NCBI GenBank assembly: GCA_903875465.1 | Contig: CAIQWB010000100.1 | Span: forward strand, 1 to 64,000 | Source of the DNA: an uncultured Verrucomicrobia subdivision 3 bacterium | GTDB taxonomy: Bacteria; Verrucomicrobiota; Verrucomicrobiia; Limisphaerales; UBA11358 | DNA: 64,000 bases | Direction: 5' to 3' | Part shown: piece by piece, positions 14,136-16,866 of the stretch | Layout: each line of letters begins with the position of its first letter | Numbering within the stretch: position 1 is the stretch's first letter | Notes under the pieces: generated by a model | The model's input: only the letters and a program-made list of their open reading frames with translations | Database searches by the model: none | What the model was told of the DNA's origin: nothing | Position numbers and translations under genes: made by a program

Positions 14136-15338
14136 TCATTTCGCCGGCGTGGCGGGGGCAAAAGCGGCCAGGACGCTGCGGGAGGACAGGCTGCGGCCCC
14201 GCCAGAAGTGGATGCCGCTGGCATTCCAATTGGCCACTAAAATGCTGCCTTCATGGGTTCCGGAAAAACCGTAAAACGTTTCGCCCGGGGATACTTCCGG
14301 CGCGCCGACAAATTCAGCAGACTGGACATGGACGCTAAATAATTCCTCCACGGGCACCACCAGACCGGCGACGTCCACGATTTCGCCCAGGCGGCGGCGG
14401 GCGGCTTGATAGGGGGTGAGGGCATCCAGCGGATGCATGGGGGTGAACAACACCCAGTCGGGATCGTGCGGGTGAAAGTTCATGATCAAAACCGCTTCCT
14501 GGTTCTGGTCGTCGCGCAGGTAATACTCGTGCTGTTCCAGTTGCCAGTTCACCTCGGACAGTTGCAGCAGGGCATGGCCGGTGAGGCGATAGTTCACCGA
14601 GGCCACACGGCCCGTGGCCCCCAAGGACAAGGGGGAGGCCGGGGCGGTGATCCGGGTAATACCAGGGCCGGACCCAGTCCGCATAAAAATGAACTTGCAC
14701 AGGAACAACCCGGCAATTAAGACCAAGATGGCCAGCAATACTTTGGTCACCATTGCCGACCCCGAAAACCCCTCGTTTTCCCGGGTATCGAAACGGCTCA
14801 AGCCGCCCGGGGGCACGCCGGGGAGGTCGGGGGCATCCAGATGAAAGGCGGCACGGACCTCGCGATTGGAAATGGTGCGGCCCCGGTAATATTCCACCTC
14901 ATCGCCGGTCCAACTGACGACGATCATGTCATCACCGTGCTGGGCGTTAAAATACCGGGCGGTGGCGTCCACATGCTCGCCTTCGGCGGGCTGGCCTTCG
15001 ATAAAATAAATGCGGGAGGTTTCCACGAGGGAAACCCGGACATCCGTCCCCTCCAGATTCAGTTGGTCGCCGACTTCCTGGGTGGCGGCGTCCTCGGCGG
15101 TGAGGGGATATTGTGGTTGAAACTGGGTGAACCAACGCCATTCCGCGCCACGTTCGGTGCGTTCAAAGACGAGCGTGGCGGTGTCGCCGGTGTCGCTTTG
15201 CAGGTTGAACTCGTGCCAGTAATAAGTTTCCCCATGCTCGACCACCCCCAGTACCACCCGGCCGAGCACCTGCCAGGTGAGGCCGGCGTAGGTGGCGGAC
15301 TGGCCAACGTGAATATACGTGGGATTCTTGAAGTTCAT
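14136..15338 (-). CDS. DUF4178-type membrane protein with duplicated domain
   Basis: The 400-residue product has two related soluble domains flanking one membrane helix at about residues 197-219. The N-terminal domain carries the DUF4178-like pattern (a beta-rich block with ETYYWHEFNL and FIEGQPAEG). The ends of the two halves match each other: VVSWTGDEVEYYRGRTIS near residue 141 and ANWNASGIHFWRGRSLS near 373, which shows an internal duplication. DUF4178 proteins are repeatedly encoded next to glutathionylspermidine-synthase-like ATP-grasp ligases. That is the case here, with an ATGA overlap with the upstream ligase gene. The role in the complex is unknown. Confidence 0.72.
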   Translation of the reverse strand: MNFKNPTYIHVGQSATYAGLTWQVLGRVVLGVVEHGETYYWHEFNLQSDTGDTATLVFERTERGAEWRWFTQFQPQYPLTAEDAATQEVGDQLNLEGTDVRVSLVETSRIYFIEGQPAEGEHVDATARYFNAQHGDDMIVVSWTGDEVEYYRGRTISNREVRAAFHLDAPDLPGVPPGGLSRFDTRENEGFSGSAMVTKVLLAILVLIAGLFLCKFIFMRTGSGPGITRITAPASPLSLGATGRVASVNYRLTGHALLQLSEVNWQLEQHEYYLRDDQNQEAVLIMNFHPHDPDWVLFTPMHPLDALTPYQAARRRLGEIVDVAGLVVPVEELFSVHVQSAEFVGAPEVSPGETFYGFSGTHEGSILVANWNASGIHFWRGRSLSSRSVLAAFAPATPAK

Positions 15339-16462
15339 GGGGCGGGAAAATAATGGGGGACGAAGCGGCTCAAGTTGCCGGTGATGCGGCGGGTGTCCTC
15401 GCGAATGCCCAGGCCGGCGGCCTCATGGTCCACGACCCAGACGCCAAAGACGGGGTGCTGGCCGGCGAACACAGGGCTCCGGCCAATGGCCTGGTAGATA
15501 AATCCCTCAGCACCGTACGGCCCGGGGTTTTCCTCGACCACCTGATGATTTTCCACCCAGCGGACGTTGCTGCCCTCGCGGCTTAACCGGGGTTTGCGGA
15601 TGTAATCACGGCCCAGCGGTTCAGGCGTGTCAAAGGCCGGGAGGAGATTGGGGTGGTCGGGAAAAAGTTCCCATAAAATGGGGAGCAGGCCCTTGCTATT
15701 AACTAGCATTTTCCAGGCGGGTTCGATCAAGCGAAGATTCTCCGGCCGCACATGGGCACCGAAGGGTTCTGCCCACAGCCATTCCCAGGGGTACAATTTG
15801 AAGGCATGCGTGATGGGCTGGCAGTCCAAATCCACAAACTGCTGGCGGGGCGCATCCCAGCCGATTTCCTGGATCGCCAGTGAATGGGTGAGGGCACCGG
15901 CTTGTTCGCAGGTGTCGCGGAGGTATAGCAGGGTCATTTCATCCTCGGCATGTTCGCTGACGGTGGTGAAATAAATGGTCTGGCCCGACCAGCGCTGCCA
16001 GGCGGTGATCAGCCGTTCGTGCAGGGAATTGAATTGATCGGCGGTGGGATGGAGGTCTTGCAACCAAAACCATTGCGCCACGGCGGCCTCCACCAGGGCG
16101 GTGGGGGTGTCGGCATTGTATTCGAGCAGTTTGGGCGGCGTGAGCGTGTCGTAGCTAAGGTCGAACCGGCCGTAGAGGCTGAAATCATCCCGTTCCCAGG
16201 AGGCGAGGATGGTGGGGATGGCGATTTCGGGAATGCCCAGGCGTGACCACCAATGGTTTTTGATGACCGCCTCGGCGGCGTCGATGCAGAGAAAGTGCAG
16301 GGTGTTGGCGGCGGATTCAAGATCGGCCACCTCGGCAGCCGTCAATTCATAACAGGCCGACTCATCCCAGTAGGGCCCCTGAGCATGGGAATGGTACGTA
16401 AGCCCGATCGCCTCCAAGCGAGCTGGCCAATCGGGGCGGGGCTGGCTGGGGTGACGTTTCAT
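15335..16462 (-). CDS. Glutathionylspermidine synthase-like ATP-grasp amide ligase
   Basis: This is an ATP-grasp ligase of the GSP_synth family (YgiC/YjfC type), 375 residues, predicted to form an amide or peptide bond with ATP. The family blocks are present: YHSHAQGPYWDESACYEL near residue 23, LLEYNADTPTALVEAA near 132, and RKPRLSREGSNVRW near 303 (substrate and ATP binding). It lacks the N-terminal amidase domain of bifunctional E. coli Gss. Both ends overlap neighbours by ATGA: the lipoprotein upstream and the DUF4178-type protein downstream. The real substrate is probably not glutathione; a peptide or polyamine is possible. Confidence 0.88.
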   Translation of the reverse strand: MKRHPSQPRPDWPARLEAIGLTYHSHAQGPYWDESACYELTAAEVADLESAANTLHFLCIDAAEAVIKNHWWSRLGIPEIAIPTILASWERDDFSLYGRFDLSYDTLTPPKLLEYNADTPTALVEAAVAQWFWLQDLHPTADQFNSLHERLITAWQRWSGQTIYFTTVSEHAEDEMTLLYLRDTCEQAGALTHSLAIQEIGWDAPRQQFVDLDCQPITHAFKLYPWEWLWAEPFGAHVRPENLRLIEPAWKMLVNSKGLLPILWELFPDHPNLLPAFDTPEPLGRDYIRKPRLSREGSNVRWVENHQVVEENPGPYGAEGFIYQAIGRSPVFAGQHPVFGVWVVDHEAAGLGIREDTRRITGNLSRFVPHYFPAP

Positions 16463-16866
16463 CCGGAGAAGCCGCTCCAGCCATGGTAACCGCCCCCGCC
16501 GCCATAGTATCCGCCGCCCCCGCCGTACCCGGAACTCCCAAACCCGCCGCGGGAGACATCGGTGCGCATGGTCTGGGCGAACGAGGCCGCCTCGGCCGTG
16601 GGTGCGGAGATGTTGGTGATGCTTTCAAAAGGGCGGACACCCCATTCGCCGCCGTAGAAAAACTTTTGATTGATGGGGTCGAAATGGTTATAGGGCAGGG
16701 AATACCAGTTGCGAAACGGGGCATGGTAATAGCCCACACCCGGGACGTAAAAGTTATTGGTATATACGTTATCCGCCGTGATGCCTGGCTTGTGGCCGCA
16801 GCCGGCCAGCGCCCCGGCCGACAAGCCACCCATCAGGATCAGGCGGATATGATGGCTGCGTTTCAC
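16459..16866 (-). CDS. Lipoprotein with Gly/Tyr-rich tail, DUF1190-like end
   Basis: This is a 135-residue lipoprotein. The N-terminus has a basic region, a hydrophobic core and the lipobox LAGC with Cys22 or 23 as the acylation site. The middle is polar and aromatic (FYVPGVGYYHAPFRNWY). The tail is SRGGFGSSGYGGGGGYYG followed by more Gly/Tyr. From memory, E. coli YgiB, a DUF1190 lipoprotein encoded beside the ligase YgiC, also carries an RGGFG segment near its C-terminus. The gene overlaps the ligase gene by ATGA and is the first gene of the cassette. The tail is a candidate substrate of the ligase, which is inference. Confidence 0.72.
   Translation of the reverse strand: MKRSHHIRLILMGGLSAGALAGCGHKPGITADNVYTNNFYVPGVGYYHAPFRNWYSLPYNHFDPINQKFFYGGEWGVRPFESITNISAPTAEAASFAQTMRTDVSRGGFGSSGYGGGGGYYGGGGGYHGWSGFSG

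Follow-up and report, generated by a model that had tools for sequence, protein, structure and literature searches.

A conserved RGGFG tail beside YgiC/YjfC-type ATP-grasp ligases marks a candidate polyamine-tagging system in bacteria and phages

The window, a 64,000-nucleotide stretch of an uncultured verrucomicrobial genome (GCA_903875465.1, contig CAIQWB010000100.1), holds on its minus strand three consecutive genes encoding a lipoprotein, a PF03738 ATP-grasp ligase and a DUF4178 membrane protein. A preliminary description had these genes joined by two ATGA overlaps, and both overlaps do read ATGA. Upstream of the cassette lies purE (named from the sequence), and no further gene of the set was found downstream in the window sequence. 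The features are as follows.

16459..16866, minus strand: lipoprotein gene, 135 aa, with signal peptide and lipobox, a small folded domain (residues 31-100) and a disordered tail (sequence, AlphaFold2 prediction)
16798..16866, minus strand: signal peptide MKRSHHIRLILMGGLSAGALAGC with predicted lipid-attachment Cys23 (sequence)
16537..16551, minus strand: RGGFG motif, residues 106-110, proposed ligase docking site (94/107 loci strict, 102/107 with variants)
16462..16536, minus strand: terminal spacer, residues 111-135, ending in Gly-COOH, proposed acceptor end (tail composition)
16459..16462, minus strand: ATGA overlap, lipoprotein/ligase (sequence)
15335..16462, minus strand: ATP-grasp ligase, PF03738 (YgiC/YjfC type), 375 aa (Pfam; closest solved relatives YgiC, 7uk8, and YjfC, 7uk6)
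15335..15338, minus strand: ATGA overlap, ligase/DUF4178 (sequence)
14136..15338, minus strand: membrane protein, 400 aa, two DUF4178 domains flanking one transmembrane helix (Pfam, profile comparison, model)
14844..15338, minus strand: first DUF4178 domain, residues 1-165 (Pfam, E 5.8e-9)
14685..14756, minus strand: predicted transmembrane helix, residues 195-218 (model, low confidence here)
14154..14630, minus strand: second, diverged DUF4178 domain, residues 237-395 (hhalign of halves)

The lipoprotein gene starts with GTG, its product has the lipobox LAGC with Cys23, and its C-terminus consists of SRGGFG plus 25 residues, ending ...DVSRGGFGSSGYGGGGGYYGGGGGYHGWSGFSG. AlphaFold2 predicts a compact domain for residues 31-100 (pLDDT 96-98) and a disordered tail (residues 110-135, pLDDT <50); a structure search with the body gave no match (best E 6.1). 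The preliminary description had likened the end of this protein to that of YgiB-type DUF1190 lipoproteins. The likeness is real for the tail, which in E. coli reads TVTRGGFGES... in YgiB and SRGGYGRSSSARGHWGG in YjfM, and it is confined to the tail: the DUF1190 (PF06693) Pfam model did not match the window lipoprotein, and a weak match in one relative (E 0.013, below cut-off) covered the C-terminal part only. Membership by Pfam is hence not borne out, and the protein is of DUF1190 type only by having a C-terminal R-G-G-[FY]-G tail beside a ligase.

The ligase matches PF03738 over its full length (positions 1-371 of 371, E 5e-140, 467 bits) and scores 303 bits against YgiC and 279 bits against YjfC, versus 95-101 bits against GspSA. 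Its closest named relatives are verrucomicrobial (71-73% identity), one of them on a contig of a same-genus genome. Identity as a glutathionylspermidine synthetase/amidase was rejected, given an NCBIfam equivalog score of 123.5 bits against a cut-off of 882 and no amidase domain in the 375 aa. Across 105 ligases, 66 columns are conserved in at least 97% of sequences, and 37 are identical in E. coli GspS. Residues R316, D318, E330, N332, E391, K498, K533, R538 and R598, which we take to be catalytic or ATP/Mg residues, are conserved and the same as in GspS, whereas S335, S337 and T441, presumably glutathione contacts, differ in the ligases. ATP-grasp ligases activate a carboxylate. Both YgiC and YjfC are reported to be peptide-spermidine ligases in vitro (PMC12568646, which cites Pederick 2023).

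With the ligase as the sole criterion, we gathered 30 loci in related genomes and 80 by scanning 84,980 species genomes; three were dropped as duplicates or near-duplicates (n = 107). At each locus R[GS]GFG was scored in the last 70 residues of the protein encoded immediately upstream of the ligase. The strict motif is present in 94 of the 107 loci, and variants (HGGFG, KGGFG, SGGFG, RTGFG, RGTFG and RGGFT) in 8 further loci, making 102. The preliminary description had named the lack of a conserved tail motif in orthologous cassettes as a refutation of its reading, and the motif is present in most of these loci. Low-complexity Gly/Ser tails (61% S+G) might be thought to give RGGFG by chance, but this explanation is refuted: shuffled tails yielded a mean of 0.33 matches (maximum 3, 2,000 rounds) against the 94 observed, and the same motif search found 0 of 1,011 other same-strand ORFs of the loci. 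By record title, in which names of metagenome bins may be wrong, the loci belong to Verrucomicrobiota, Proteobacteria (alpha, beta, gamma, delta), Planctomycetota, Acidobacteriota, Nitrospirota, Cyanobacteria, Gemmatimonadota, Actinobacteria, Bacteroidota, Sumerlaeota and Hydrogenedentota. The tail rule beside the ligase thus spans about ten bacterial phyla as well as phages, although the loci are not independent events because their sequences are related.

BLAST of the protein bodies, with tails and signal peptides removed, gave 18 clusters; when the ten clusters with at least two members were compared as profiles, a single pair was joined. By these comparisons most bodies appear not to be detectably related, and the tail rule is kept in all but few of the clusters. 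Of the 102 tail proteins, 69 have an N-terminal start KRSxx[VI]xL, against none once shuffled, and 62 were scored as having a lipobox; among 38 others some have a Cys missed by the lipobox rule and some have none. The tail proteins of L036, L037, L038, L041 and L020 have no lipobox Cys, and a lipid anchor is therefore not essential to the pair. At L084 (Phycisphaerales), upstream of 5001, two proteins in tandem (176 and 84 aa) precede one ligase, each with a TSRGGFG tail, and at L045 and L046 the tail domain is fused, upstream of the ligase, to the end of a ~400-aa membrane protein with several hydrophobic segments. Exceptions to the rule are the ligases at L030, L031, L053 and L070, which have no tail protein, the Bacteroidota locus L218, where the lipoprotein beside the ligase lacks GFG, and the distant ligases of Azospirillum and phage PhiW-14. 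The RGGFG of L097 (Nitrospira) may be a chance occurrence: its 103-aa ORF is unusual and has no signal sequence.

The association between lipoprotein tail and ligase, already drawn in the preliminary description, also holds at the level of genomes. In a profile search of 146 related genomes the lipoprotein was found in 28 of 30 with the ligase and in 0 of 116 without it (Fisher p 5e-28, kinship ignored); the two ligase genomes without a match have distant ligases (38% and 52% identity). A motif marking many proteins per genome was rejected for exact RGGFG in the window genome, where none of 85 pattern matches was another exported protein with a C-terminal RGGFG.

Phages transfer the two genes as a pair. 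The ligase is present in 132 records of a phage collection. Of ten phage ligase loci, nine have a lipoprotein with a GFG tail within three genes of the ligase; in these nine, which are genuine phage loci, ligase identity is at least ~33%. Their tails are:

Motura: VRGGFGSTGSSFSAGG
Phosso: GKGGFGGRSGGFGG
OC: SRGGFGARAISVAG
Acj9: SRGGFGGATSSGG
Acj61 and fHyAci03: SRGGFGGAVSSGG
44RR: SKGGFGKSGSFGSSGG
LAh_8: SRGGFGSIGGRSGGGFSSGS
50AhydR13PP: SSGGFGKSGGFGSSGG

The tenth, Delftia phage PhiW-14 (L231 2735-4957), has a ligase of 26% identity and a lipoprotein with a Gly/Ser tail lacking GFG; ligase and tail may be diverging together there. In Achromobacter phage Motura (MN094788, L213 803-3628), a homospermidine synthase (annotated), an RGGFG-tailed lipoprotein and the ligase lie in a row. 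Plasmid loci have RGGFG (Sulfitobacter, SBW25, Klebsiella), RGGWG (Vibrio) or RQGFG (Rhizobium). The L217 and L218 contigs were rejected as phages, their gene content looking bacterial. In T4-like phages (L228 2890-6139, L216 1345-4156, L227, L230, L232) lipoprotein and ligase sit near lysis-inhibition genes, rI in Aeromonas phages and rIIA in Acinetobacter phages, the latter also having an SMR-type QacE transporter near the pair. A role of the phage pair in lysis timing or superinfection exclusion is possible.

These distributions bear on who reads the motif. The tail protein is exported, and a Haemophilus influenzae lipoprotein whose gene shares an operon with such a ligase has been located to the outer membrane, on its periplasmic side and not surface exposed, with no clear phenotype on deletion (PMC13055389). 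RGGFG could accordingly be read by another envelope factor, in sorting, by a protease or in peptidoglycan or LPS binding, and be linked to the ligase via the operon only. This is very improbable in our view, as the lipoprotein is never found without the ligase in the 146 relatives, and in phages the ligase and tail protein travel together with no further gene in common. Because the motif recurs beside the ligase in about ten phyla and in phages, the natural target of the enzyme is probably the RGGFG tail of the neighbouring lipoprotein.

The third gene is less constant. DUF4178 (PF13785) was matched by Pfam in the first domain only (36.7 bits versus a gathering cut-off of 25). Alignment of the two halves by hhalign (13 relatives) gave 99.9% probability (E 2.5e-31) versus 0.1-0.2% for column-shuffled controls, and calling the domain duplicated, as had been done from the sequence, was therefore right. 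The model has two beta-rich domains with a single helix (195-218) between them, and a structure search returned no solved match (best E 0.009, TM 0.12). DUF4178 may plausibly act as a membrane partner, yet it does not belong to the core, because it is seen downstream of the ligase only in relatives of the same order as the window organism. Of 29 ligase-bearing relatives, 26 have DUF350, almost always adjacent to the ligase; in about half of the 80 wider loci it lies within about one kilobase. From the distribution of the two domains, the core is the tail protein plus the ligase, with DUF350 as the usual third part. The window genome and its congener G008 have no DUF350; in G041 it lies elsewhere in the genome and a nucleotidyltransferase-like pair occupies its usual place. 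At L006 (225-1015), a nucleotidyltransferase and a HEPN-like partner (by eye) stand at the DUF350 place upstream of the lipoprotein.

The cassette lacks DUF350, spermidine synthase and PspA, as noted in the preliminary description, and none of the three was found in the whole genome assembly (96% complete); PspA together with DUF350, which defines PspA-associated polyamine operons, is thus not found in the window genome. The same description spoke of a minimal form. The gene set is indeed reduced, and loss is the better term, since 26 of the 29 ligase-bearing relatives keep DUF350. The window cassette is hence a lineage variant of a known operon kind, a reduced, DUF4178-bearing version from which DUF350 was lost.

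Composition after the motif points to the acceptor. The stretch is usually 7-19 residues long (range 7-27, 25 in the window), consists of 61% Ser + Gly, contains no Cys and has Lys in 4 of 102 tails. Asp and Glu make up 1.0% of it versus 5.7% of the preceding 60 residues, and either occurs before the last residue in 6 of the 102. The C-terminal residue is S in 61, G in 29 and E in 8 (98/102), with 90 S+G observed versus 59 expected from the stretch, and 8 Glu versus about 1. In most tails the C-terminus is the sole carboxylate. With so few others after the motif, an enzyme that activates acids would find its substrate at the C-terminus; judged by composition, the shortage of acids and the S, G or E ending make the C-terminal carboxylate the probable acceptor. 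A fixed C-terminal Gly as in glutathione was rejected, Ser being commoner, and so was a graspetide (RiPP) pathway, whose acidic side-chain acceptors in the core are missing from nearly all of these tails. Glu-ending tails (…AGE, …GGE) come from Acidobacteriota and related loci (L073, L077, L078, L080, L081, L086, L089, L108); Glu is nearly absent elsewhere in them, and the acceptor may differ there.

Alternatively, RGGFG could be a tether or sensor holding the ligase at the membrane, while a soluble peptide-polyamine is made from another peptide. Such a role would suit the presence of one lipoprotein per ligase, the use of a small soluble thiol peptide by ATP-grasp relatives (GspSA) and the position of the motif 7-27 residues from the C-terminus, which is compatible with docking only. 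We nevertheless consider it unlikely: tethering needs neither a constrained terminal residue nor an acid-poor end, the GSH-site residues are not conserved in the ligases, and the neighbourhood contains no other conserved peptide gene.

If the tail is the substrate, the amine in the window organism is unlikely to be spermidine, because AdoMet decarboxylase, spermidine synthase and carboxynorspermidine decarboxylase (nspC) were not found in the window genome at the thresholds used. The ligase-bearing relatives likewise have no AdoMet decarboxylase and no above-cut-off match to carboxynorspermidine decarboxylase. Cell-made spermidine is thereby weakened as a candidate, with a homospermidine-type gene present instead. 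This is a PF01916 gene (deoxyhypusine/homospermidine-synthase-like), and we take PF01916 in bacteria usually to mean homospermidine synthase. Because of this gene and the homospermidine synthase of Motura, homospermidine is weakly favoured here. At L091 (3344-4540, an actinobacterial bin), the tail protein is directly preceded by an ornithine/diaminopimelate-type PLP decarboxylase (by eye), another polyamine link. The lack of spermidine-pathway genes in the window genome and its ligase-bearing relatives, and the membrane proteins among the partners, would also suit a tail C-terminus modified by ammonia, an amino acid, another amine or an amino-lipid. Polyamine genes speak against this, namely the homospermidine synthase adjoining the pair in Motura, the PF01916 gene of the window genome and AdoMet decarboxylase or polyamine oxidase in other such operons (PMC11237479); YgiC and YjfC reportedly use spermidine in vitro. 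We regard a non-polyamine product as decidedly unlikely.

Taken together, we lean, with modest confidence, towards a ligase that docks on RGGFG and amidates the lipoprotein C-terminus with a polyamine before export. The enzyme would act in the cytosol as a peptide-polyamine ligase serving a single exported protein. It would bind RGGFG, which lies towards the end of the unfolded lipoprotein tail, and use ATP to activate the C-terminal carboxylate 7-19 residues beyond the motif (25 in the window), which would be joined to a primary amine of the polyamine, likeliest homospermidine here and spermidine in E. coli. Modification would precede Sec export of the tail; lipidation would then anchor the protein with a polycationic end, possibly serving envelope integrity, with DUF350 (usually) or DUF4178 (here) as membrane partners. 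Such a mechanism needs the ligase to act before export, or the tail to remain reachable. More tentatively, the pair could represent a C-terminal tagging system of about ten phyla and phages, in which a dedicated ligase recognises RGGFG and caps exported, unrelated bodies with a polyamine, this being the native role of YgiC/YjfC. The tail motif is a concrete, directly testable candidate for the natural peptide of these enzymes. If true, one enzyme type would serve many unrelated protein bodies, a family of modified envelope proteins with little common sequence would be marked out, and otherwise unannotated phage and plasmid gene pairs would be explained.

The operon type and the in vitro activity are already known; the new and general part, against the literature outside Iyer 2009 and Pederick 2023, is the tail rule. 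A search of that literature found no paper linking RGGFG to DUF1190, YgiB or YjfM, none stating the tail rule and none naming the natural peptide of YgiC/YjfC. The E. coli operons ygiB-ygiC, placed behind tolC and given as the same operon (PMC2731931), and yjfI-J-K-L-M-C have the same ligase family and the same lipoprotein-then-ligase order, and YgiB and YjfM share the R-G-G-[FY]-G tail. Unlike them, the window has a body unrelated to DUF1190, and DUF4178 instead of DUF350, PspA, DUF2170 and DUF2491. The available text of Ravi et al. 2024 describes ligase-DUF1190-DUF350 and, apart, spermidine synthase-DUF4178-DUF350 operons, with PspA, proposes a polyamine link with membrane dynamics and contains no report of a tail motif (PMC11237479). 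The grouping of ligase with lipoprotein and DUF350 is alike, and DUF4178 belongs there to a sister operon type; the window differs in joining ligase and DUF4178 without PspA, whereas in that text they form separate groups with PspA (PMC11237479). GspSA and trypanothione synthetase have fold and catalytic residues in common with the window ligase, which differs from GspSA in score (95-101 bits versus 303 to YgiC), in lacking an amidase domain and at the GSH-site positions. The product chemistry has a precedent, since SUMO ending in ...GG-COOH is joined to spermidine in eukaryotes (PMC12270671), likewise a polyamine amide on the C-terminal Gly carboxylate of a protein, as proposed for the window tail. 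SUMO-spermidine differs in being eukaryotic, reversible and made by E1/E2 enzymes of an unrelated class (PMC12270671), and the tailed lipoproteins, if modified as proposed, would be a prokaryotic counterpart to these recently found conjugates.
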